From assembly GCA_001804915.1 (NCBI GenBank), contig MHDI01000094.1:1-36039 (forward strand): a DNA stretch of 36,039 bases, given 5' to 3'. The notes beneath the pieces are model-generated. The model saw nothing but the letters and a program-made list of their open reading frames with translations. It made no database searches and was not told the origin of the DNA. This stretch comes from Nitrospinae bacterium RIFCSPHIGHO2_02_FULL_39_82 (lineage in GTDB: Bacteria; Nitrospinota; Nitrospinia; UBA9942). Shown here in pieces: positions 634 to 21,393 of this stretch; within the stretch, counting starts at the first letter, position 1; each line of letters opens with the position of its first letter. A program made the translations under genes and the position numbers.

Positions 634-3006
634 ATGAGGAATGAATTAATATTTGAAGCTCAGAGACCTGCAGTCAGGAAATTGTATTGTTACTTCCTTA
701 CGATCCTTGTTCTTCTCTTTTGTGTAGGACTGCTTAGCCTCAACCCGTCCTTTGCCCAGGAGGGAAGGCAGGCCCCCACGGTAGACTACAGGGATATTCC
801 GTGGATCGGAAGCCGTAATCTCGTCTGGGTAATTGCCCAGGTTCACCTCCTCTTTGGCGGATTCGTCCTGGGTGTCCCGATCTTTGTCTGGATCTGCGAA
901 CTGATCGCGGTGAAGACAAAGGATACCCGGTACGATAAGCTGGCCAAGGAATTTACGAAACTGCTCACGGCCTCGTTTGAAATGACCGCTATGATAGGGG
1001 CCCTTTTTCTTTTTGTTCTCCTCATCTGCTATCCCAAGTTGATGAGTTACCTCACGGGTATTTTTCTGCCCACCTACTATGTGTATGTGCTCCTGTTCTT
1101 TGGGGAGACGACTACCCTCTACCTGTACTGGTCTGGGTGGGAGACCGTGCAGCGGCGCAGGGGTCTCCACCTGTTCTTGGGCTTTCTGCTCAATGTATTC
1201 GGATTCCTCATCATGATTGTGCCGAATGCCTGGGCGACTTTTCAGGCCAGCCCGGTGGTTCTCTCGGCGGGCATGGGTGCCTGGGAGAAGGCGTGGATCG
1301 CAATGCACAACCCAACCTGGTGGCCGCTAAATGTTCACCGTTTTATTTCGAATGTGGTATTAGGTGGATTCGTCTGCGGGGCATACGCCGCCATTCGGTA
1401 TCTCGGTGCCGAGTCACAGGAGGAACGGGCCCATTATGACTGGATGGGCTATGTGGGCAATTTTATCGGGATCTTCGGCCTTCTGCCCCTGCCGTTTGCC
1501 GGCTACTGGTTGACGATGGAGATCTACCGCTACAATCAGCAGATGGGAATCACCCTGATGGGAGGATTCCTCTCCTGGCTGTTCATCATCCAGGCCGTGC
1601 TGATTGGTGTCCTTTTCCTGGGAAGCAATTATTACTTCTGGCTGGGCATTGCCTACCGGACGGAAGGGGCCGAGCGGTATAAGAAGCCCATCCTGGTGAT
1701 GCTCGTGTTGCTTTTAATCTGCTTTGGGATATGGATGACGCCTCACAGCATGGTGGCCAGCCTTCAAGAAGCCCGGCAGATGGGTGGAACGCACCACCCC
1801 CTCTTGGGTGTCTTCGGTGTGATGTCGGCCAAGATGACGGTGTCTAACCTGATGATTCTGATCACATTTGTGAGCTTTCTGGTGTACTGGCGTGCGAATA
1901 AGGTAGAGACTGTCAGATGGGCAAAGGGAGCACGTCTGACGCAAGCCGTATTAATTGTCGGCGCGGGCATCTACATCATCTGGGCGGGAGTCTATGGCTA
2001 CTTTGTGCCGGCTATTGTTCGCATCTATGTGTTGTCGGTTTCACAGGTAGGAACGGTGATTGGCGTGCTGATCCTTGTGACGATCATCGCGGTGGTGTCA
2101 ATGCGCAACGCCAAAGAATCCAAACCGTTGCATTGGGGCATGATGCCGGCGCGAAGCCAATACCTACTGGTGATGAATGCGGTGATCGTGATTCTGACCA
2201 TGAGTCTAATGGGGTATGCCCGTTCGGCTTCGCGGGTCCACTGGCATATCTATGGTGTATTACAGGACACCTCTCCCCATGCTTATACCCCAGCCCTGGG
2301 ACAGGCCTCTGTGTTTATTTCAATATCCACCTTTCTGTTCTTCATTATGGTGGTCTTTCTCTTTTGGGTTATCTCCCGCACTATACGTCGCCCTGCCTTC
2401 TCAACACAGTACTTTTTCATGGTGCCCTTTATCTTCTGGGTTGTCTCCCTTCCCGAAAAGCGCGCTGTACTGACTCAGCAGATTTCGGAACGTCCCAAAT
2501 TTTTTCAAAAGACCATGGCGACCGTTTGTGGGATCCTGATCGCGTATACCTATCTTTCCCATCAAATCCCGCAGCAGATCTCTCTTCCACCCAAGCAGGA
2601 AGAGTTCAACCCATCGCAGATCAAGACCCAGGCCGATTTAGTTAAGGCGGGGCAGAAGCTTTTTTTTGGCAAGGGTCAATGTGCTCTCTGCCATTCCATC
2701 GGACCAAGCCATACGGCACGCGCACCTGATCTCCAGGGGATCGGGGCAAAACTCACGAGGGAATTTATCTACGAGTCCCTCACTCAGCCTCAAGCCTATC
2801 TCTATATGCAATATGATCAGGGGGGGACCCCAAGGCCATTTCCGGCGAAGATGCCGGCCATCAACAAATCACCCGTCGGTCTTTCTGATCCCGAGTTGTT
2901 AGCCGTTATGTCGTTTGTTCAGAGCTTGGGAGGCAAAGTCACGATACAGCCCGAGGAAGTGAAGACCTTTATGACGACGATAACTGTTTCTACAGGAGAA
3001 CCATAA
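634..3006 (+). CDS. Cytochrome bd-like oxidase (CydA-like, multi-TM) with C-terminal cytochrome c domain
   Basis: 790 aa, many TM helices, CydA-like N-terminal part, C-terminal CALCH heme c motif; resembles the bd-like oxidases known from Nitrospira. Confidence 0.75.
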   Translation: MRNELIFEAQRPAVRKLYCYFLTILVLLFCVGLLSLNPSFAQEGRQAPTVDYRDIPWIGSRNLVWVIAQVHLLFGGFVLGVPIFVWICELIAVKTKDTRYDKLAKEFTKLLTASFEMTAMIGALFLFVLLICYPKLMSYLTGIFLPTYYVYVLLFFGETTTLYLYWSGWETVQRRRGLHLFLGFLLNVFGFLIMIVPNAWATFQASPVVLSAGMGAWEKAWIAMHNPTWWPLNVHRFISNVVLGGFVCGAYAAIRYLGAESQEERAHYDWMGYVGNFIGIFGLLPLPFAGYWLTMEIYRYNQQMGITLMGGFLSWLFIIQAVLIGVLFLGSNYYFWLGIAYRTEGAERYKKPILVMLVLLLICFGIWMTPHSMVASLQEARQMGGTHHPLLGVFGVMSAKMTVSNLMILITFVSFLVYWRANKVETVRWAKGARLTQAVLIVGAGIYIIWAGVYGYFVPAIVRIYVLSVSQVGTVIGVLILVTIIAVVSMRNAKESKPLHWGMMPARSQYLLVMNAVIVILTMSLMGYARSASRVHWHIYGVLQDTSPHAYTPALGQASVFISISTFLFFIMVVFLFWVISRTIRRPAFSTQYFFMVPFIFWVVSLPEKRAVLTQQISERPKFFQKTMATVCGILIAYTYLSHQIPQQISLPPKQEEFNPSQIKTQADLVKAGQKLFFGKGQCALCHSIGPSHTARAPDLQGIGAKLTREFIYESLTQPQAYLYMQYDQGGTPRPFPAKMPAINKSPVGLSDPELLAVMSFVQSLGGKVTIQPEEVKTFMTTITVSTGEP

Positions 3007-3007
3007 A

Positions 3008-4465
3008 ATGGAAATTGAATCCATAAAACCCCTCTTAGCTGTTGCCACATCTTTGCTTGGGGCCGCGGTCATCGTGGTAACCCGCAAGTCTCCGAATATC
3101 CGTGAGGGGTGTTCGTTGGGGGCGGCGATTCTGAAGTTTCTTATCGTGGCTACGATGATCCCACCCGTCCTGGCTGGCAAGACGCTCCACATGACCCTAT
3201 TTTCATTTCTTCCCGAGGTTTCCATTGCCTTGCGGGTAGATGCCCTGGGGCTTTTATTTGCTACCACTGCCTCTTTTTTGTGGATTGTAACCACCCTTTA
3301 CTCCATTGGCTATATGCGCTCCCTCAATGAGCATGCGCAGACCCGCTACTATCTATGTTTTGCAATCACCATGTCGGCCACTATGGCGGTGGCCTTTTCG
3401 GCCAATTTATTGACGCTGTACATTTTTTACGAGCTGATCACATTCTTTACTTATCCCTTGGTGACACACAAAGAGACCGACGAGGTGTTTGCGGCAGGGA
3501 ACAAGTATATTTTTTATCTTTTGATGTCGGCGAAATTCTTTTTACTGGCCATCATCTTGACCTACGCCTTTGCCGGCACCTTGGATTTTCGTCCAAACGG
3601 CCTCTTCGCCTCTAAAGTCAACCCAACCATACTGACCCTTATCTATTTTCTTTTTCTGGTCGGGATCAGTAAGGCGGCGATCATGCCGTTTCATGCCTGG
3701 CTGCCCGCTGCCATGGTGGCTCCCGCACCTGTGAGCGCACTGCTTCACGCGGTGGCGGTTGTGAACACGGGGGTCTTCTGCGTACTACGCGTAATCTTTC
3801 ATATCTTTGGGGTAGAGTTGATGAAGGTGTTGAACCTGGGTGCCATGACGGCCCTCATCGCGTCCTTCACCATTATCATTGCTTCAATATATGCCTTCAC
3901 ACGAGATGACCTCAAAGAGCGCTTGGCCTATTCTACGATCAGCCAACTCTCGTATATCGTGCTTGGTGGGGCGCTCTTGACCTCAAGCGGCATGGCTGGC
4001 GGGATCATGCACATTGCCAACCATGCGTTTTCTAAGATTACCCTCTTCTTCTGCGCGGGTTCGATCTATGTAGCTTCGCACAAGACCCATATTTCTCAAT
4101 TGGATGGAATCGGTAAGCAGATGCCCTGGACCATGGCCGCATTTTCGATCGGGGCACTCAGCATCATCGGTATTCCGCCCCTGGCCGGATCCGTAACCAA
4201 GACATATCTGGCGAGCGGCTCCACCGTGGCATACGGGCTTCCGATCCGATATGTCTTGTGGGCAAGTCTCCTGTTAAACGCCGGCTATTTTCTTCCTATC
4301 GTGTATAAGGCCTTCTTTAAGGCGCCAAAACAGGAGGGAGCGCTACAGATCCAGGAACCCTCCTATTTTATTGTCATCCCCTTGTTCGTCTGCGCAGCCA
4401 TCTCTGTGATCTTGGGGATTTACCCCAAGTTGTTATTGGATATGATCGGGCAGGTTATTAGATGA
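3008..4465 (+). CDS. MrpD/NuoM-like proton-conducting membrane transporter subunit
   Basis: 485 aa polytopic protein; segments such as LLTLYIFYELITFFTYPLVTH, GISKAAIMPFHAWLPAAMVAPAPVSALLHAVAVVNTG and DDLKERLAYSTISQLSYI typical of the NuoL/M/N and MrpA/D superfamily. Confidence 0.85.
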   Translation: MEIESIKPLLAVATSLLGAAVIVVTRKSPNIREGCSLGAAILKFLIVATMIPPVLAGKTLHMTLFSFLPEVSIALRVDALGLLFATTASFLWIVTTLYSIGYMRSLNEHAQTRYYLCFAITMSATMAVAFSANLLTLYIFYELITFFTYPLVTHKETDEVFAAGNKYIFYLLMSAKFFLLAIILTYAFAGTLDFRPNGLFASKVNPTILTLIYFLFLVGISKAAIMPFHAWLPAAMVAPAPVSALLHAVAVVNTGVFCVLRVIFHIFGVELMKVLNLGAMTALIASFTIIIASIYAFTRDDLKERLAYSTISQLSYIVLGGALLTSSGMAGGIMHIANHAFSKITLFFCAGSIYVASHKTHISQLDGIGKQMPWTMAAFSIGALSIIGIPPLAGSVTKTYLASGSTVAYGLPIRYVLWASLLLNAGYFLPIVYKAFFKAPKQEGALQIQEPSYFIVIPLFVCAAISVILGIYPKLLLDMIGQVIR

Positions 4466-4468
4466 ATC

Positions 4469-5203
4469 TTGAAAAATATTTGGGGCAGCATGATTAAAAA
4501 ACCTTCTATTTTAATAAAGGCAGTTATTTTTCTTATATTGATATATACAGGATTAAGGCTGATAAAGCCACCCCTTCCATTCAGCCTGCTCTTTATGTAT
4601 ATGACCATCTCTATATTGGGAGTACTTGTATGGGTAACATTATACGAAGATACGATGAAGGAGTTCTTTAATCCTATCGTTAATTTCCTTTCTGGTGAGG
4701 GGCTTACTGGCTTGAAGAAAAATTTAAGAATTGCAATTCTGATAATATTTCCCTTGTGGGTAGGATTTTTTACCTATTCAAAAATTGCACCTAAAAATCA
4801 ACCACCTCTGGAGGCAAGGGTTATACACCCCTCTCCACCTATAGAATATACCGGCATTGAGATCACTGTTGAAGACAGTGAAGAGACTGTCTCTGAAGGT
4901 GCGACTATATATTACGACAAGTGCATATTCTGTCATGGTGACCAGTTGGATGGTAATGGTGCAGAGGCGTTAGCAATGAATCCCCCGCCGGCAAATTTTA
5001 GAGACGCGGGAACTATTGCCCAGCTTCAGGAGTCATACCTCTTCTGGAGAATACTCAAGGGCGGAGAGGGACTACCTGTAGAATCCACTCCATGGAAATC
5101 AGCCATGCCGCCATGGGAAGGGAGGCTGACCGAGGAGGAAATCTGGAAGGTCATAAAATATTTATATAAGGAAACAGGACATTCACCGAGGACATGGAAA
5201 TGA
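4469..5203 (+). CDS. Membrane-anchored monoheme cytochrome c (about three TM helices then heme domain)
   Basis: CIFCH motif in GATIYYDKCIFCHGDQLDGNG; hydrophobic N-terminal segments. Start could be TTG 4469 or ATG 4490. Confidence 0.8.
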   Translation: MKNIWGSMIKKPSILIKAVIFLILIYTGLRLIKPPLPFSLLFMYMTISILGVLVWVTLYEDTMKEFFNPIVNFLSGEGLTGLKKNLRIAILIIFPLWVGFFTYSKIAPKNQPPLEARVIHPSPPIEYTGIEITVEDSEETVSEGATIYYDKCIFCHGDQLDGNGAEALAMNPPPANFRDAGTIAQLQESYLFWRILKGGEGLPVESTPWKSAMPPWEGRLTEEEIWKVIKYLYKETGHSPRTWK

Positions 5204-6735
5204 TACAATTTAAAATTGATAAAAAGTGGTATTTAATTTATACAATATTTGTTATTTTTATTATTTTACTACCCCTATTAACCTCTTATGCAGGAGAGAA
5301 GGATATTGGAGCTATGGTTACATCAAAATTTATCAAGGGTGATATATCAGATGACCCAAATTCCCCTGTATGGGAGCAGGTACCCACAGCTCAATTCCCC
5401 TTATTTTCCCAGGTAAGATTTGAACCCAGATGGTTTGACGGCAAAGTAAGGTCAATATCTGTTCGCTCTATAAACAATGGAGATAAGATTGCCTTTCTAT
5501 TGGAGTGGGAAGATAAAACAGAGGATAGAAAAGGGGATGGGCTTAAAGATGGTGTTGCCATTGAGTTTCCTGTTGGAAAGGAAAAGGCGCATTTCTCTCA
5601 TGCTTCAAGGATGGAACAGCTTCCGGGTGGAAAGGTTAATATATGGCACTGGAAGGCAGGCTCAACAGATATAAAGGATATGAATGCAGAGGGGTTAGGG
5701 ACTTTAACCGTTCAAGAGCATCAGGATGTTACCGGTAAAAACTTTTGGAATAATAATAAATGGAAGGTAGTTTTTTTAAGAAGATTAAGTAATTCCGATA
5801 ATAATGATGTCCAGTTTCAACCTAAGGAGTATAAGGAGTATAAAGATATTGCATTTGCAGTATGGGATGGTTCTAATGAAGAGCAGGGTGCGCAAAAGAC
5901 AATCTCATCGTGGTATTATCTGCAGGTAGAAGTCCCTCCAAATAGAATGATATATGCCTACAGTTTAATTGCAGTTGTTGTGGCAGGGTTATTTGAGTTT
6001 GTTATAATCAGGAAGTTAAAAGGTATAAAAAAGGGGGTCTTATCATTAATTTTGCTCTTTGTAATTTTGAATGGATGTTTTAGAAATGAAACTGCAGAGA
6101 GGGGAAAGAACCTCTATGCAAAATATTGTTCCTCATGCCATGGGAAAAAAGGGAGAGGGGATGGTTTCAATGCAGCATATTTAGACCCGAAACCAAGAGA
6201 CCACACTGACAGCAAAGAAGAGTATATGGTAGCGAAAGACAATAAAAAGCTTTTTGATGTTGTGTCTAAAGGGGGGAGAGGTATTGCAAAATCACCGTTA
6301 ATGCCCCCATTTGGCAATACTCTTTCTGAAGGCGAAATATGGAGTGTGGTTGCATATATGAGAACCCTTCACAAAAATAAATTTGAAAAAATAACTATAC
6401 AGGAAACGGAAAAAGTAGTTAAAAAGAAAACACATCTTAAGATTGAAAAAATTAATTTTGAAAATGTTGAATCCCTGTCAGAGGATATAAGTCGTGGAGA
6501 AAGGCTTTTTAAGGAAAAATATGGCTGTTACTCCTGCCACAGAATTGGAGAGAAGGGGGGTGTAATTGGATCACCGTTAGATAGGGTTGGGTTTAGATTA
6601 AATGCAGACTGGATATTTAGATGGATATCAAACCCTCAAACTATTAAACCGGATACTATTATGCCAAATTTTGGTATGCCTGATAGGGATGCGAGATTTA
6701 TAGTCTCATACCTGAAATCTCTTAAGGGGATTTAA
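5194..6735 (+). CDS. Ethylbenzene dehydrogenase gamma-like heme-binding domain, TM helix, then two cytochrome c domains
   Basis: N-terminal signal, EB_dh-like region (RSINNGDKIAFLLEWEDKTED...DGVAIEFPV), TM about residues 250-275, then CSSCH and CYSCH motifs. Confidence 0.7.
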   Translation: MEMIQFKIDKKWYLIYTIFVIFIILLPLLTSYAGEKDIGAMVTSKFIKGDISDDPNSPVWEQVPTAQFPLFSQVRFEPRWFDGKVRSISVRSINNGDKIAFLLEWEDKTEDRKGDGLKDGVAIEFPVGKEKAHFSHASRMEQLPGGKVNIWHWKAGSTDIKDMNAEGLGTLTVQEHQDVTGKNFWNNNKWKVVFLRRLSNSDNNDVQFQPKEYKEYKDIAFAVWDGSNEEQGAQKTISSWYYLQVEVPPNRMIYAYSLIAVVVAGLFEFVIIRKLKGIKKGVLSLILLFVILNGCFRNETAERGKNLYAKYCSSCHGKKGRGDGFNAAYLDPKPRDHTDSKEEYMVAKDNKKLFDVVSKGGRGIAKSPLMPPFGNTLSEGEIWSVVAYMRTLHKNKFEKITIQETEKVVKKKTHLKIEKINFENVESLSEDISRGERLFKEKYGCYSCHRIGEKGGVIGSPLDRVGFRLNADWIFRWISNPQTIKPDTIMPNFGMPDRDARFIVSYLKSLKGI

Positions 6736-6789
6736 AATTAATAATCCAGTGATAAACATAACATTTAACTAAAACAAAGGGAGGTAAAA

Positions 6790-8274
6790 ATGTTCAAGAG
6801 ATTTTCAATGACATTATTCATATTAATATTAAGTTTAATGACCTCTTCTTCAAAAGTGTTAGCTGAAGAGTCGCCATTTATCGGTTATAGTGGAGGGGGA
6901 TATAATGGTAAATTGATGATATTCAGTATCCCGGGGTTAGAACTCTTAAAGGAGGTATCAATCGGTGTAGATATTCGTGGTCCAGTTACGGATGGGAAAA
7001 ATCTCTTTGTAGTGGATAAGGCACAGAATATTGTTTCAATAATTGACCTTTCAAACTCATCGGTAAAAAAGAACATAAAACTTTCTGATGGTTTTGGGCC
7101 GAATTCAATAGCTGTCTCTAAAGATGGTAAAAATGTTTATATTGCCGGAGAACTGAGTGGAAAAGTGGCAGCAGTTTCTGTGGAGTCAGATAAAATGGTT
7201 GCCCTCGCTCTACAGCCTATGCCGAGTTCGCCAAATTTTATTGCCATTACACCGGATGGGAAACATTGTCTGGTAAGTGACTATACCAATAACAGGGTAC
7301 TCCGTATATCCACATCTCCTTTTAAATTAGATAAGGAGATTAAGGTGAGGGGACCTTATGGAATTACTGTTACGCCTGATGGAAAATATGCACTGGTAAG
7401 CAGTAAATTTTCTGCCTCCCTTATTTTTATTGACCTCAAAAATTTCAAAATAGAAAAGACTTTAAAGACAGGTGCAGTCCCAATGAATATCGTAGTTGAT
7501 TCAAAGGGTGCCTTTGCCTATCAATCTCAGCATGCAAGTAGTGAGATAATAAAGATTGATATTGAAAAAAAGGAGGTTGCAGGGAGATTCACAGTAAAAC
7601 ATAACCCTGGTAATATCTCTATTTCCCCTGATGACAAGTATCTGATATCTTCCAATAAGTTTTCAACAGGTATATATGATAAGCTATATTCAAATATTTC
7701 TGATAAAGGCGGAGCTGTTACTCCGCAAAATATGGAGGTCATAGAGATAGGGAGTGGGAAGTCTGTAAAACAGGTGGCTATATCAGGAGACATTTCTGAT
7801 ACAGTTATACTTACGAAGGGTTCTGTGAAGGATGCATCCCTAAAAAGCAGTGGTCAATTTGTTAAACAAGGAGGTAAACCAGATTTGGCGCCAAAAGAAG
7901 GCGTTAAAATAAGTTACACTGCGGCTGATGATAGACCACCCGGGACATTTGATGCTGAAGATGGGGCTATAGAGATAAGACTGAAGGCACTCTCATATAT
8001 CTTTACCCCAAATACTGTAAATGTCTTTAAGGGGGATACAGTTAGATTTATAATAACAAATATAGATGAAAAGGCGCTCTTTATAGATAAACCCGATGTA
8101 GTTCATGGTTTTACTATCAATGGATTAGGAAAACAGACGAATGTGCTTTTACCAAGGGGGGTATCAGCTGTAGTAGAATTTAAGGCTGACAAAAAGGGGA
8201 TATATAATTTTTATTGCAGCAATTTCTGTGGTCCTGTGCATCATGAGATGAGAGGGACACTTATAGTCGAATAA
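6790..8274 (+). CDS. Secreted YVTN-type beta-propeller with C-terminal CuA cupredoxin domain (nitrous-oxide-reductase-like, CuZ histidines absent)
   Basis: Repeated TPDGKYALVS/SPDDKYLIS propeller motifs; C-terminal VVHGF ... CSNFCGPVHHEMRG matching the CxxxCxxxHxxM CuA motif; RBS gggagg. Confidence 0.8.
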   Translation: MFKRFSMTLFILILSLMTSSSKVLAEESPFIGYSGGGYNGKLMIFSIPGLELLKEVSIGVDIRGPVTDGKNLFVVDKAQNIVSIIDLSNSSVKKNIKLSDGFGPNSIAVSKDGKNVYIAGELSGKVAAVSVESDKMVALALQPMPSSPNFIAITPDGKHCLVSDYTNNRVLRISTSPFKLDKEIKVRGPYGITVTPDGKYALVSSKFSASLIFIDLKNFKIEKTLKTGAVPMNIVVDSKGAFAYQSQHASSEIIKIDIEKKEVAGRFTVKHNPGNISISPDDKYLISSNKFSTGIYDKLYSNISDKGGAVTPQNMEVIEIGSGKSVKQVAISGDISDTVILTKGSVKDASLKSSGQFVKQGGKPDLAPKEGVKISYTAADDRPPGTFDAEDGAIEIRLKALSYIFTPNTVNVFKGDTVRFIITNIDEKALFIDKPDVVHGFTINGLGKQTNVLLPRGVSAVVEFKADKKGIYNFYCSNFCGPVHHEMRGTLIVE

Positions 8275-8287
8275 AGGGGGGGATAAG

Positions 8288-8728
8288 ATGAAAAGATATT
8301 TATTTATGCTATTTATTTTTACCTTTTTTCTTTTTGGTTTTACATTGTCTTTATATGCCCTTTCTGCTGATGAATTTCTTGAAAAGGTCAAATTTACAGG
8401 CAAGCCTGTTGCAAAGAAGGGGAATCCTGCCGAAGGGAAGGAGAATTATGCAATGTTCTGCACAAATTGCCATGGTGAGAAGGGCGAGGGTAATGGACCA
8501 GTAGCAAGTGTGGCAAAGATGGACCCTAAACCGAAAAATCATACAGATGGAAAATATATGAATGAAAGGAAGAGTGAAGATTTGTTTAAAGTTATAAAAC
8601 TCGGAGGGAAGGGAGTGGATAAATCTGTTTATATGCCGGCATTTGGTATGATTCTGTCCGAAGAAGAAATTTGGAATCTAATAGCCTATTTACGCACAAT
8701 AGCAGCACCACCATATTCCGGAAATTGA
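8288..8728 (+). CDS. Small secreted monoheme c-type cytochrome
   Basis: Signal peptide; CTNCHGEKGEGNGP; paralogous to 178-615. Confidence 0.85.
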   Translation: MKRYLFMLFIFTFFLFGFTLSLYALSADEFLEKVKFTGKPVAKKGNPAEGKENYAMFCTNCHGEKGEGNGPVASVAKMDPKPKNHTDGKYMNERKSEDLFKVIKLGGKGVDKSVYMPAFGMILSEEEIWNLIAYLRTIAAPPYSGN

Positions 8729-8754: not shown

Positions 8755-10518
8755 ATGGGTAAGAGATATAAATTTAAGGTAAATCCAAAACTTTACGAAG
8801 GGATTCCATGTCAGACTAACTGTCCTGTCCATACAGATGTCAGGGGTTATGTAACACTTATATCTCAGGGGAGATTTGAAGAGGCTTATGACCTTATAAG
8901 GGAGACAAACCCGTTCCCATCTGTCTGCGGGAGGGTCTGCCAGCATTTTTGTGAAGTAAACTGTAGCAGACAGAGAATAGATGATAAATCAGTCTCAATC
9001 TGCACACTAAAGAGGTCAGCATCTGATTATACACTTAGAAAGAGGGGCAAACAGCCTTCTGCAAAATTTTATGGCACATTGGAAAAGGTGGCAGTTATAG
9101 GTGCTGGACCTGCAGGACTTACCACCGCCCATGACCTTGCAAGACTCGGATATAGGGTTACTGTATTTGAATCTCTCCCATTTGCTGGAGGAATGCTGAT
9201 TGCAGGGATACCTGCGTATAGACTACCGAGGGATATCATTCAGGCTGAGGTGGATTATATAAAGAGTATTGGAGTTGATATAAAACTAAATACCAAAGTG
9301 GGGAAAGACATTCAGATAAAGGATTTGATGAAGGAGTATAAGGCTATCCTTATAGCAGCGGGTGCCCATAAACCTGTTAAGTTAAATATATTAGGTGAGG
9401 AATATGAAGGGCTGATTCATGGTGCTACATTCATGCAAAAGGTGAACATGAATGAGCCATTAAATCTCAAAGGGAAGAGGGTAGGGGTGGTAGGTGGCGG
9501 TTTCACTGCAATGGATGCGTCTCGCTCGGCGATAAGACTTGGTGCATCAGAGGTATATATTATCTATAGAAGGACAAGGGAGGAGATACCTGTAAATGAA
9601 AAGGAGATTATTGAGGCAGAAGAAGAGGGGGTACAGTTTAAATACCTCATATCACCTGTGAGGATATTGAGCAGGGATGGGAAAAATATATCGGGGGTAG
9701 AGTGTATAAAAAATGAGTTGGGTGAACCTGATAAGAGCGGGAGAAGGAAACCAGTCCCTGTTAAAGGTTCAGAGTTTGTTATGGATTTGGATATCATAGT
9801 CCCTGCAGTAAGCCAGGCACCTGATATGTCATTCATAGGTGATAGTATGGGGTTCAGGATGACAAACTGGGGGACAATAGCAGTTGACCCCTCTACATTT
9901 GATACCAACATAAAAGGGATATATGCCTGCGGTGATTTCATTACAGGGACAAGGGATGTAATAAATGTCATAGCAGATGGACATAAGTCAGCTATGGCTA
10001 TAGATAAATTTTTGAGGGGGGTTGATGCAGATGAAGAAATAGAGGAGATTGAAAGGGTTGTAGTTGGTTATCCTCGTAAAGAGAGGGGATACGATACTAT
10101 AAGAAGGCATAAGGCGATGACAATTTCAATTGAGAACAGGGTATCGACTTTTAAAGAAGTAGAAACGGGTTTTACAGGAGAGGATGCAATGATGGAGGGA
10201 AAGAGATGCCTCCAGTGTAATCACATCTGGACACATCTGACTGAAAAATGTTTCCTCTGTAAAAACTGTGAAGATGTATGTCCGGTGAATTGTCTGACAG
10301 TTGTTCGTCTTGATGAGCTGGCACACAATAGATTTTTCAATGAAAATATTCCACTTATAACTCAGGGTATCATACCTGTTGAAATAAAAAGGGAACTTTG
10401 TATAAGGTGTGGACTCTGCGAACAGGTCTGCCCTGCAGATGCTATAACATTTATTTCTACCCGACCAGCTAAGAAGGAAAAGATGGTTATTTTGGAAGAA
10501 GTAACATCGTTGCTATAA
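8755..10518 (+). CDS. NAD(P)-binding FAD oxidoreductase of the GltD (glutamate synthase small subunit-like) family with C-terminal 2x[4Fe-4S] ferredoxin domain
   Basis: GAGPAGLTTAHDLARLGYRVTVFE; N-terminal CQTNCPVH/CGRVCQHFCEVNC; C-terminal CFLCKNCEDVCPVNC and CIRCGLCEQVCPADA. ATG 8755 with ggagg RBS preferred over the ORF-track start. Confidence 0.88.
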   Translation: MGKRYKFKVNPKLYEGIPCQTNCPVHTDVRGYVTLISQGRFEEAYDLIRETNPFPSVCGRVCQHFCEVNCSRQRIDDKSVSICTLKRSASDYTLRKRGKQPSAKFYGTLEKVAVIGAGPAGLTTAHDLARLGYRVTVFESLPFAGGMLIAGIPAYRLPRDIIQAEVDYIKSIGVDIKLNTKVGKDIQIKDLMKEYKAILIAAGAHKPVKLNILGEEYEGLIHGATFMQKVNMNEPLNLKGKRVGVVGGGFTAMDASRSAIRLGASEVYIIYRRTREEIPVNEKEIIEAEEEGVQFKYLISPVRILSRDGKNISGVECIKNELGEPDKSGRRKPVPVKGSEFVMDLDIIVPAVSQAPDMSFIGDSMGFRMTNWGTIAVDPSTFDTNIKGIYACGDFITGTRDVINVIADGHKSAMAIDKFLRGVDADEEIEEIERVVVGYPRKERGYDTIRRHKAMTISIENRVSTFKEVETGFTGEDAMMEGKRCLQCNHIWTHLTEKCFLCKNCEDVCPVNCLTVVRLDELAHNRFFNENIPLITQGIIPVEIKRELCIRCGLCEQVCPADAITFISTRPAKKEKMVILEEVTSLL

Positions 10519-16952: not shown

Positions 16953-17957
16953 TTAAATCAGCCCATACCTCTTCCTCGCTATAGTCAGTATATTCATTAT
17001 CATCTCATTATAACTTATTCCGGATATCCTTGCAGCCTTTGGAAAGCATGAATTGTCTTCAGGGTTTGGCAGTATTCCGGGTAATGGATTAAGTTCAAGT
17101 ATATTGGGATTTCCATTTGTATCAAGTCTGATATCTATCCTGCACCAATCTCTGCATCTGAGAGCCCTATAAGACTTCAGGGCAACATCCTCTATTTTAT
17201 GCCTTAGTCCATCGGTAATATCTGCCGGACATTGAAATATCTCAAGGGGATTATCTGCCTTATCCCACAACCACTTAGCTTCATAAGAATATATAGGGTT
17301 GACCCCATCGGGAAGGGTATCAAACCTTATCTCAACAATGGGAAATATTTTTGTATCCCCATCGTTTCCCATAATCGCCACCGTGAATTCCCTTCCCTTT
17401 AGATATTCTTCAATAATGGCAGGTTGGTGATACTGAGCGATAACCTCCTCAACCTTTTTCTTTAAATCAGAAATTGTGAATACTACGGCATCGTTTCTGA
17501 CTCCCTTACTTGAACCCTCATGAAGGGGTTTTACGATAATGGGAAAGTTTTTCAATCTTACCCTCTCTAAGGTAGACGATACTACCTGAAATGATGGGGT
17601 AGGTATTTGATAAGATGATAATATCTCTTTGGCTCTACCTTTGTCAAGACATAAAGAGAGTGTCAGAGGGTCAGAACCCGTGTAAGGAATAGAGAGCATC
17701 TCTAAGATGGCAGGTATATGGGATTCCCTATTTGCCCCGTCTCTACCCTCTGCCATGTTGAATATAATATCAGGTTTTGAATTTTTAAAGTTTTCCACCG
17801 CATTTTCATCCGCCTCAATCAGAATAACCTCATATTGTGTTGATAGGGCAGACCTCACTGCCTCAATAGTTTCCTCTGTATCCCATTCTGCATCCCAGTC
17901 AGATGGAAGCCCTTCTCTATGCCCTTTTTTTAGATTGAAAGTCAGACCGACACGCAT
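16953..17957 (-). CDS. ATP-grasp ligase, D-Ala-D-Ala ligase-like (paralogue B)
   Basis: PDIIFNMAEGRDGANRESHIPAILEMLSIPYTGSDPLTLSLCLDKGRAKEIL; FPIIVKPLHEGSSKGVRNDAVV; CRIDIRLDTNGNPNILELNPLPG. Confidence 0.85.
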   Translation of the reverse strand: MRVGLTFNLKKGHREGLPSDWDAEWDTEETIEAVRSALSTQYEVILIEADENAVENFKNSKPDIIFNMAEGRDGANRESHIPAILEMLSIPYTGSDPLTLSLCLDKGRAKEILSSYQIPTPSFQVVSSTLERVRLKNFPIIVKPLHEGSSKGVRNDAVVFTISDLKKKVEEVIAQYHQPAIIEEYLKGREFTVAIMGNDGDTKIFPIVEIRFDTLPDGVNPIYSYEAKWLWDKADNPLEIFQCPADITDGLRHKIEDVALKSYRALRCRDWCRIDIRLDTNGNPNILELNPLPGILPNPEDNSCFPKAARISGISYNEMIMNILTIARKRYGLI

Positions 17958-17959
17958 AA

Positions 17960-19198
17960 CTACCCTCTTTTGAATAGCTCAAATTGTTTAAGCCGTTTGG
18001 CAGATTCATGATATTCAAATATCTTTCCTTCATAGTTCCTTAAAGTTACCCGTCTGTCAGCCTGAGATATAAGATATGCAGGACTAAGAGGAATCTTGCC
18101 ACCTCCCCCTGGTGCATCAATGACAAAGGTGGGAACGGCATAACCAGTGGTATGTCCCCTGAGCTTTTCTATTATATTGATACCTGCCGAGACAGGTGTG
18201 CGGAAATGCCCTGTTCCAACTGCCGGGTCACACTGATAGATATAGTATGGTCTGACCCGTATCTTAAGGAGTTCATGCATAAGCTTTTTCATGATATGAG
18301 GCTTATCATTTATTCCACGGAGAAGGACAGTCTGACTTCCGAGAGGAATTCCTGCATTTGCTAAAAGTTCACATGCCCTCTTTACCTCTTTTGTAATCTC
18401 TTTTGGATGGCAAAAATGGATACTCATCCAGAGTGGATGATATTTTTTGAGTGTTTCTGTAAGAGATATATCTATTCGCTGAGGAAGAGTTACAGGAACA
18501 CGGGTGCCAATCCTTATTATTTCAACAGATGGTATTTTTCTCAGGTTTGCAAGTATATCCTCCAACATTTCCTCTCTAAGCAAAAGAGGGTCTCCACCTG
18601 ATATCAAGACATCCCTTATTTTCCTGTTTGCCCTTATATAAGAATATACATCGTTGAGTCTATTCTTTGAGATGACATTCTCTTCAGCTCCTACTATTCT
18701 CCTCCGTGTGCAATATCTGCAATACATGGCACACTGGTCTGTAACTATAAGGAGTGCCCTGTCAGGATATCTGTGTACAAGACCTGGAAGTGGTGAATGG
18801 GTATCTTCACCGCAAGGGTCAACCATATCATGGGATGAGATATAAGATTCTTCTCTTCTGGGGACTGCCTGACGGCGGATTGGACAGTCAGGATTGTAAG
18901 GGTCAATCAAAGAGGCGAAATAAGGAGTTATTGCCATTGCCAGCCTTCCCCCCGCAGCAATTACACCCTCTTTCTCTTCCGGAGTCAATTTAATAATCTC
19001 TTCTAACTGTTCAAGCGTAGTAATTCTTTCTTTTAACTGCCAGTGCCAGTTATTCCATAACTCTTTTGAAACAGGTTTTATTGACCTTTTTTCCTCTGTG
19101 GTATTTATATTAGGCGGGAGTTTAAAAATTTGATGACCAACTATTATGGGTATTTTACTACCGGGAGGCTCTTCAAAACTACACTCCGATGATTCCAT
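17960..19198 (-). CDS. KamA-family radical SAM amino acid 2,3-aminomutase
   Basis: CAMYCRYCTRRRIVG (CxxxCxxC), DVLISGGDPLLL, RIGTRVPVTLPQRI; KamA-like length and C-terminus. Confidence 0.88.
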   Translation of the reverse strand: MESSECSFEEPPGSKIPIIVGHQIFKLPPNINTTEEKRSIKPVSKELWNNWHWQLKERITTLEQLEEIIKLTPEEKEGVIAAGGRLAMAITPYFASLIDPYNPDCPIRRQAVPRREESYISSHDMVDPCGEDTHSPLPGLVHRYPDRALLIVTDQCAMYCRYCTRRRIVGAEENVISKNRLNDVYSYIRANRKIRDVLISGGDPLLLREEMLEDILANLRKIPSVEIIRIGTRVPVTLPQRIDISLTETLKKYHPLWMSIHFCHPKEITKEVKRACELLANAGIPLGSQTVLLRGINDKPHIMKKLMHELLKIRVRPYYIYQCDPAVGTGHFRTPVSAGINIIEKLRGHTTGYAVPTFVIDAPGGGGKIPLSPAYLISQADRRVTLRNYEGKIFEYHESAKRLKQFELFKRG

Positions 19199-19235
19199 AT
19201 AAAATTTCTTTTTCCCTCCATAAAAAGTTAATATT

Positions 19236-19259
19236 TAGCGTACCATAAAATGGTAGCTA
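19236..19259 (-). promoter_or_regulatory. Hairpin in the kamA 5' leader
   Basis: TAGCTACCATTTTATGGTACGCTA: TACCAT/ATGGTA stem extended by TAGC/GCTA. Confidence 0.45.
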
Positions 19260-19296
19260 TAAAACCATCTCACTTACTGCATTTTCTATTTATTAA

Positions 19297-19325
19297 AATA
19301 TAAACACAATATATTGCGGTGTCAA
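19297..19325 (-). promoter_or_regulatory. Predicted sigma70-type promoter for kamA: TTGACA-N17-TATATT
   Basis: Reverse complement TTGACACCGCAATATATTGTGTTTATATT. Confidence 0.65.
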
Positions 19326-19347
19326 GAAAATTTTTAAAATAAGACTT

Positions 19348-19836
19348 TCAGGGCAGAGAGAATATTTTTTTATAAATTATTTTATCATCTCCTGTCGAAT
19401 AAAAATCTTTTACCCTTGCCTCTTTTGCAAAACCATTTTTTAAATAGAATCTACGGGCTTTTTCATAGACTGCCCTTGAGGATGTTTCGGCAAGAAGCAT
19501 TCTCCCTGATAGTTTTATTATTTCATCCTCTACATATTTAAGGAGTCTCTTGCCGATACCATATCTTTGATATTCTGGCTTGACAACAAGCCAGTAAATG
19601 TCATAAACAGAATCTGTGAGTGGTGATTTTCCATAGCATGCATATCCAAGTATTTCTTCGTTATCATTTAAGGCAGAGGCAATAAAATAGTCCTTCTGGT
19701 GGAGGTTATTAAGGTATATATCTATCAGTTCAAGTGCGCAGTTGATTTCCATTTGATTGAAGACATCACATCTCAAGAGTATGGATTTAATAGCCTCTCT
19801 GTCTTCGCTTATCATTCTTCTAATTTTTATTTCCAT
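19348..19836 (-). CDS. GNAT-family N-acetyltransferase
   Basis: YWLVVKPEYQRYGIGKRLLKYVEDEI acetyl-CoA motif; overlaps upstream gene by 17 nt. Confidence 0.88.
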   Translation of the reverse strand: MEIKIRRMISEDREAIKSILLRCDVFNQMEINCALELIDIYLNNLHQKDYFIASALNDNEEILGYACYGKSPLTDSVYDIYWLVVKPEYQRYGIGKRLLKYVEDEIIKLSGRMLLAETSSRAVYEKARRFYLKNGFAKEARVKDFYSTGDDKIIYKKIFSLP

Positions 19837-20851
19837 AAGACCTCTCCAGTGCAGTATTCAGGATATTTTTAATCATATCTTTGTATGAGCATCCTGCTGT
19901 CTTTGCTGATTCTGCCATCCCTCCATTGATTGATATATCAGGATTGGAATTTACCTCTAAAACAACAGGTGTTTTATCTTCTCTCATTCTGATATCAACT
20001 CTGGCATAATCCCTGCACCCTGTAACCTTGAATGCCCTCAATGCCACTTCCTTTATTTTCTGCTCCTTATCACTGTCAATATTTGCAGGACATAGGGACG
20101 CTGTAAGCTTATATATATCACTTTCTTCCATCCACTTGGATTTATAACAGAGTATTTTCGGTGCATTAACAGGTAATTTAGAATAATCTATTTCAGATAA
20201 AGGTAAAACAACGGACGGGTGATTTCCTATAATTGATATACTGAATTCTCTGCCATCTATATACTCTTCTATCAGAGCCGTTTGATTATATTTATTGAAA
20301 ATATATTCAACCTTTTTCCTGAGTGTGTCAATATTGAAAACAACTGAGTCTCTGTCAATACCGAGACTGCCATCTTCTGATAATGGTTTAATGAAGAGGG
20401 GAAACTGCAGATTACAGATTAAAGATTCCAGATTATTAATATTGTCAATATTAATCTGTATTCCTCGGGGGACTGAAATGTTATCTTGATTTAGAATTTG
20501 TTTGGTCTTCCATTTATCGTTTGTTAATCCTATGACTGCAGGTGGAGAACCCGTATACACAATATTGAGCAGTTCAAAGAGGGCAGCTATATTCATCTCC
20601 ATAGAAGTGTCACCATCAAATGCCTCACAGAGATTGAATATGATGCAGGGTTTTGATTTCTCTATTCTTTCTATTGTATTTATTAGGTTGCTGGGATTTA
20701 AAGCTATTCGGGAGGCATCAAAACCTGATTTGATTAATGCTATTTCTATATCTATGGATGTCTTTACTACTGACCTCAGAGAGATTATATCTTCTTCAAT
20801 ACCCTTTTTCGATAAGAGGTCATCATTATAAACAATGATTATATTTTTCAC
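19820..20851 (-). CDS. ATP-grasp ligase, D-Ala-D-Ala ligase-like (paralogue A)
   Basis: KPCIIFNLCEAFDGDTSMEMNIAALFELLNIVYTGSPP; FPLFIKPLSEDGSLGIDRDSVV; ARVDIRMREDKTPVVLEVNSNPD. GTG start overlapping the pdaD stop (TAGTG) preferred over ORF-track start. Confidence 0.85.
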   Translation of the reverse strand: MKNIIIVYNDDLLSKKGIEEDIISLRSVVKTSIDIEIALIKSGFDASRIALNPSNLINTIERIEKSKPCIIFNLCEAFDGDTSMEMNIAALFELLNIVYTGSPPAVIGLTNDKWKTKQILNQDNISVPRGIQINIDNINNLESLICNLQFPLFIKPLSEDGSLGIDRDSVVFNIDTLRKKVEYIFNKYNQTALIEEYIDGREFSISIIGNHPSVVLPLSEIDYSKLPVNAPKILCYKSKWMEESDIYKLTASLCPANIDSDKEQKIKEVALRAFKVTGCRDYARVDIRMREDKTPVVLEVNSNPDISINGGMAESAKTAGCSYKDMIKNILNTALERSYGNKN

Positions 20852-21393
20852 TAAAATAAAAGTACTGCTGCTGCAACAACTGTGCAATAGCCATTTTTTA
20901 CCACTGCAGTCTGGGTTATATTTGTTGTCCTGACTATCTTGCCGCTGATTTTGAAGACATCTTCCTTCTCATCCCAGCTTTTATTTTCATCAAATTCAAC
21001 ACCGAGGGTTGAGGCGAGCATTGCAGCAGCCAGATCTTCCGAATAATCCCCTGCAGATTTTTCAGTTTTACCATAGGAATGATGTTCACTCAGATATCCG
21101 TATATAGTTTTATCAGTTGGTATTGCACAACCTACAGAAGCTGCAACCAAACGATGCGGTTCATTGCTTCCACATCTCGCAAGTACACAATATGTTATCA
21201 TCCCCGGTATTAATTGTCTTATTCCCTCATTTCTGCTGATTATCTTGCAGCCTGGTGGAAATATACTGGAGACATAAACCAGATTACACTTTTCAATACC
21301 TGCATCTCTGAGTGCAAGCTCAAAAGAGCGAAGTTCCTCCTTATGAGTTCCAACACCTTTGGTAAAAAACACTTTCTTGGGTACAAGTACCAT
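20851..21393 (-). CDS. pdaD: Pyruvoyl-dependent arginine decarboxylase
   Basis: [79 protein letters not shown]. Confidence 0.88.

Follow-up and report, generated by a model that had tools for sequence, protein, structure and literature searches.

The window, by which we mean the whole analysed stretch of 36,039 nucleotides from Nitrospinae bacterium RIFCSPHIGHO2_02_FULL_39_82, contains at positions 6790–8274 a gene whose product resembles nitrous oxide reductase (N2OR, NosZ) in its β-propeller and CuA domains and has lost the histidines of the catalytic CuZ site. The locus raises the question of what such a protein is related to, whether it could reduce N2O and, if not, what it does beside a set of cytochrome genes. 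The window features described below lie on the plus strand unless stated otherwise.

The ORF encodes a protein of 494 residues, begins with ATG and is preceded by GGAGG within a ribosome-binding site (GGAGGT, 6780–6785). Residues 1–25 (6790–6864) form a predicted Sec signal peptide, called by eye from a KR pair, a hydrophobic core and a terminal VLA. A YVTN/lactonase-type β-propeller (residues about 29–390; 6874–7959) is matched by Pfam Lactonase/YNCE and is modelled as a series of β-strands, with fair confidence over residues 61–270. The CuA cupredoxin domain (residues 391–494; 7960–8271) is matched by Cupredoxin_1 and COX2. Histidines ahead of this domain are found only at positions 159, 248 and 271, those inside it are at 439, 484 and 485, and the sole HH pair in the protein is 484–485. 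A preliminary description had read the gene as encoding a secreted protein with a YVTN-like propeller ahead of a complete CxxxCxxxHxxM CuA signature and its upstream His, and had counted three histidines before the CuA domain with no HH pair there. The count is exact, the signature is present as H439, C476, C480, H484 and M487, the two halves are recognized separately by the profiles above, and the predicted signal peptide supports secretion.

The best whole-length NCBIfam match is NF052460, the profile of clade III lactonase-type NosZ (L-NosZ), with 384 bits and E = 6.9e-115, and the match runs continuously from protein residues 29–494 against profile positions 2–479. The score lies under the curated cut-off of 700 bits, which is also missed by the His-bearing L-NosZ of Nitrospinota (566–603 bits) and is passed in five genomes of another class. 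Other profiles score far lower (clade II NosZ, 120 bits; clade I, 90 bits; CoxB, 37 bits). In the CuA domain, 47% of residues match L-NosZ and 33% canonical NosZ; for the propeller the figures are 30–33% and 21%. The window protein and its two orthologues (the window-type trio) have in common with L-NosZ a CGP[LV]H stretch and six extra residues ahead of the CuA His/Met position, both of which clades I and II lack. As judged from these matches and alignments, the window protein is a full-length relative of clade III L-NosZ and not of clade I/II NosZ. According to He et al. (doi 10.1038/s41586-025-09401-4), as cited in PMC13274427, L-NosZ was reported in 2025 as a new N2O-reducing family; a lactonase-domain 'NosZ-like' clade had been noted earlier (PMC11033732). 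The N2OR-like scaffold of the preliminary description thus stands as a relationship, but the lineage, which was not named there, is the lactonase-type one; each of the two halves, compared separately, is closer to L-NosZ than to canonical NosZ.

In structural comparison, no L-NosZ structure was found in the PDB by sequence, and canonical N2OR is the match that covers both domains. Sequence search of the PDB and Foldseek both return N2O reductase, and the archaeal YVTN S-layer protein 1l0q ranks first. Since the models are poor (pLDDT 56 and 55, with a two-sequence alignment as input), the Foldseek TM-scores of about 0.5, obtained with the model of pLDDT 56, are not relied on. The rank of 1l0q, together with good scores of the propeller on generic YVTN/YncE models, is what would also be seen if a common YVTN/YncE propeller had been joined independently to a COX2-type CuA domain, with no NosZ in its ancestry. 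Such an origin is highly improbable in view of the single continuous L-NosZ profile match, the insertion and the CGP[LV]H motif in common with L-NosZ, and the relic histidines of the orthologues, which fall exactly on CuZ columns.

The copper sites were compared in an alignment of 36 L-NosZ with canonical NosZ, represented by the Paracoccus denitrificans protein and two proteins of clade II. At the seven canonical CuZ columns the window protein has R63 and G64 (6976–6981; HH in canonical NosZ), N105 (7102–7104), Y190 (7357–7359), N233 (7486–7488), N275 (7612–7614) and S336 (7795–7797), so that none of the seven histidines is kept, in agreement with the earlier claim that CuZ ligands are absent. 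The G003 orthologue keeps two of seven and the G002 orthologue one; the His of the fourth column is retained in both. The register is least certain at the seventh column, although none of the three proteins has a His near it. All 36 L-NosZ keep six of the seven in the pattern H-N/E-H-H-H-H-H, the second His of the first pair being Asn or Glu; the missing ligand may come from a GHH in the next blade. In Pseudomonas stutzeri N2OR, CuZ is no longer metalated when any one of six of its seven histidines is replaced (PMC11573801). As single replacements already have this effect and the window protein has none of the seven histidines, it very probably cannot build CuZ.

The CuA site is intact. Its five side-chain ligands, H439 (8104–8106) and those in the stretch C476-S-N-F-C480-G-P-V-H484-H-E-M487 (8215–8250), are invariant in the window-type trio and identical to those of canonical NosZ. 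In all 36 aligned L-NosZ, including the one encoded elsewhere in the same genome (G000:C35) and those at loci L055–L084, the first His is replaced by Met (PDVTMGF versus LTHGF). Rotation of this His has been discussed as a CuA gate in canonical N2OR. The window protein is thus a mirror image of L-NosZ: it combines a canonical CuA with the absence of all seven CuZ histidines, whereas L-NosZ combines Met at the first CuA ligand with six of seven CuZ histidines. Two further histidines of the window protein, H248 (7531–7533) and H485 (8242–8244), are invariant in the three orthologues, and their columns hold Phe and Leu/Met/Gln, respectively, in all L-NosZ and canonical NosZ; a new metal site or tuning residues are possible from this conservation.

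The two orthologues (G003, at L022, 79% identical; G002, 74%) come from the window genome's own family, which, judging by the G003 orthologue, is that of 'Nitrospinae bacterium RIFCSPLOWO2_12_39_16'. The trio is a sample of three sequences from metagenome-assembled, incomplete genomes of one family and three genera. Across the propeller, 65% of columns are invariant in the trio, but none of the seven former CuZ columns is (0/7; sampling test, P = 0.0005). Pairwise dN/dS is 0.12–0.18 over the protein and 0.07–0.12 in the CuA domain, ratios that are approximate because dS is near 1. Free variation at the CuZ columns together with low dN/dS points to a selected, derived protein, and variable CuZ columns beside a fixed CuA are the pattern expected if an N2OR-like ancestor dropped the need for CuZ. 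The relic histidines of the two orthologues argue for an N2OR-like ancestor that had CuZ and lost it, and against a scaffold that lacked CuZ from the outset; the preliminary description is amended in this respect. The long branch of the trio and the lost catalytic site would also suit a decaying gene without present function, but this is extremely improbable for a gene that is intact in three genera and has kept all CuA ligands, and the dN/dS range led us to reject a pseudogene.

In trees, the trio forms a single, long, well supported branch, whose position relative to the L-NosZ clade varies with rooting, and long branches meet there. By tree topology, the trio would be either sister to all L-NosZ, with the CuA His ancestral, or nested in them, with the Met reverted. 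A recent duplication of the resident L-NosZ gene was considered and rejected, since the trio does not branch with Nitrospinota L-NosZ.

Further L-NosZ were gathered from the class, from other phyla and from a wider sample. No further window-type protein was found in 1,068 genome searches, which partly overlap, nor any CuZ-less member beyond the window protein's own family. A scan of genome contigs returned nothing beyond the G003 orthologue and one weak propeller match, a scan of viral contigs with the window-type and L-NosZ alignments returned no relative, and the best matches listed from plasmid tblastn were NosZ of clades I and II only.

The window genome (G000) holds a second, longer, His-bearing L-NosZ (G000:C35; L005:1663–3462, minus strand). 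Its L-NosZ profile score is 567 bits, and it is 31–46% identical to the window protein over matched parts. Both proteins are carried by G000 and G003. This co-occurrence, the presence of CuZ histidines and Met for the first CuA His in the resident protein, and the meeting of CuA and CuZ from opposite protomers in the normal N2OR dimer (PMC11573801) suggest a heterodimer that reduces N2O, in which the window protein would contribute CuA and its partner CuZ. We regard this as very unlikely. The two genes lie on different contigs with different neighbours; among incomplete assemblies, L-NosZ occurs without the window-type protein in G001, G004, G005, G007 and G008, and the window-type protein without L-NosZ in G002. 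Moreover, the Met is present in all 36 L-NosZ, including those of genomes that lack a window-type protein, and L-NosZ therefore needs no such helper.

Several Nitrospinota-related genomes carry His-bearing L-NosZ genes (L005:1663–3462, L010–L013, L038 and L039), although a comparative study reports nosZ to be absent from all Nitrospinota that it analysed (PMC10839748). A related genome (G005:C134) also contains an ORF of 1139 residues (L016:1198–4617) whose N-terminal half is L-NosZ-like, with the CuA Cys/His gone and three CuZ His lost. This half is fused to about 600 residues without a Pfam match, in which, by eye, the stretches NGCGTG and HHNQ resemble those of caspase/CHAT proteins.

The window gene lies within a module of redox genes. 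The module starts with a monohaem cytochrome c (178–615), followed by a bd-like oxidase subunit (CydA-like; Cyt_bd_oxida_I) fused to a cytochrome c (Cytochrom_C; 634–3006), an MrpD/NuoL-like antiporter subunit (3008–4465, from a profile match), a membrane-anchored cytochrome c (4469–5203) and an NxrC/EBDH-gamma-like haem b subunit fused to a dihaem cytochrome c (5194–6735; EB_dh, TIGR03477 and two CXXCH). Downstream are a second monohaem cytochrome c (8288–8728) and, by profile, a GltD-like NAD(P)-FeS oxidoreductase (8755–10518), which is also the next gene in the G003 module. The small and membrane-anchored cytochromes were assigned from Pfam matches, and gene order was compared between the three genomes. 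In G003 the gene order is the same apart from the MrpD gene; the lone MrpD/NuoL-like subunit thus sits inside an oxidase module that occurs elsewhere without it. In G002 the downstream cytochrome c is kept, but an ABC ATPase/permease pair precedes the gene in place of the oxidase module. The proposed association with c-type cytochromes accordingly holds in all three genomes for the downstream cytochrome c (71–74% identity) and in two of three for the rest of the module, and because the G002 gene and its cytochrome c neighbour adjoin ABC-transporter genes, the link to the oxidase rests on two genomes.

Two further CydA–cytochrome–NxrC-like modules are present elsewhere in the genome (C34 and C30), making three paralogous modules in one 1.6 Mb genome (window 634–3006, L117:4687–6552 and L122:1910–4156); the CydA–cytochrome c fusion and the CuA protein are present in the window copy alone. 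The CydA–cytochrome–NxrC-like module recurs in the class, and the NosZ-like gene is absent in the stretches read. Where PMC10839748 treats them, the CydA-like proteins of Nitrospinota are mostly of the OR-N class and are thought to be fed by cytochrome c. Comparable clusters in Nitrospina, Nitrospira and Kuenenia hold cupredoxin-like proteins, which have already been proposed as copper electron carriers to a terminal oxidase (PMC3578206).

Taken together, the N2OR-related scaffold, intact CuA, missing CuZ, secretion and cytochrome neighbours make electron transfer without N2O reduction the best reading. We consider it reasonably probable that the window protein is a periplasmic CuA electron-transfer protein from L-NosZ stock that has lost CuZ, does not reduce N2O and has cytochrome partners. 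From a common stock with clade III N2O reductase, the protein would have lost the seven-His CuZ and kept the canonical CuA; without CuZ it would be unable to reduce N2O. Electrons would enter from a c-type cytochrome of its own operon, the best candidate being the product of 8288–8728, and could plausibly leave to the cytochrome c domain of the bd-like oxidase (634–3006) or to the NxrC-like dihaem protein (5194–6735), with the propeller serving as a docking or dimer scaffold. We infer copper loading, inactivity, the direction of electron flow and the partners, and with them the putative hub between cytochromes and a terminal enzyme that the preliminary description had suggested. The G002 gene order, and a possible other metal site at H248 and H485, count against this reading. 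A relay is the most likely role, and its main support is the module, which is context and not proof.

A copper chaperone, store or sensor, for instance in CuA assembly, is an unlikely alternative to an electron carrier. The protein is secreted and has a copper site, and in G002 its gene comes after the ABC ATPase/permease pair, but the ligands fit a stable dinuclear CuA site and not a transient copper donor, and the operon in two genomes consists entirely of redox proteins except for the MrpD-like subunit. A more specific form of the electron-transfer reading can be put forward only tentatively, namely that a retired N2O reductase now brings electrons, through CuA, into a bd-like terminal oxidase that is fed by cytochrome c. 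In heme-copper oxidases, COX subunit II has this part. If true, the bd superfamily would include a member fed through CuA, and an enzyme of denitrification would clearly have become an electron carrier of respiration.

Among known systems, L-NosZ is the closest: homology extends over the whole length, with a Sec-type signal, a lactonase-like propeller and a C-terminal CuA cupredoxin in common, although the window protein is only ∼35% identical and is found beside a bd-like oxidase module. Canonical NosZ of clades I and II shares the propeller and CuA architecture, but the window protein is 22–25% identical to it and has shorter propeller loops; no nosDFYL genes lie beside the window gene, and no NosD match was found in this genome. 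COX subunit II has the same CuA ligand pattern and cupredoxin fold, but the window protein is propeller-fused and secreted, with the low CoxB score given above, and no heme-copper oxidase subunit I is found beside its gene. The β subunit of hydrazine synthase is alike only in its propeller repeats (70 bits against a cut-off of 560). In properties, the nearest parallel is with DPANN archaea, whose secreted NosZ-like proteins have CuA and lack CuZ; when three of these were tried in a Pseudomonas nosZ mutant, N2O consumption was not significantly restored, and the authors placed the proteins between COX2 and clade II NosZ (PMC10936187). The DPANN proteins, compared here by their published description, are archaeal and of a lineage other than the lactonase type, and the wide margin by which L-NosZ is the best match of the window protein argues against a DPANN-like placement. 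The window protein is the first CuA-only NosZ-like case seen here on a lactonase-type scaffold, and relic histidines in its orthologues document the loss.

Profile scores are already used to count clade III NosZ, itself a new group, in soils and genomes. Window-type proteins reach hundreds of bits with the L-NosZ profile and have no N2O site, so that under lenient thresholds they would appear as false N2O sinks; gene surveys could miscount the window protein, probably a copper protein that carries electrons, as a nitrous oxide reductase. L-NosZ counts should be checked at the seven CuZ columns. The protein is also a natural experiment, an N2O reductase stripped to its CuA half, with L-NosZ as the counterpart that carries a natural His-to-Met change at the putative CuA gating residue.

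Elsewhere in the window (16953–21393, minus strand), two D-Ala-D-Ala-ligase-like ATP-grasp proteins flank genes for a lysine-2,3-aminomutase-like radical SAM protein and for a GNAT acetyltransferase, and an apparent pyruvoyl-dependent arginine decarboxylase comes next. By its gene content, this cluster resembles a small pathway for amino acids or peptides.
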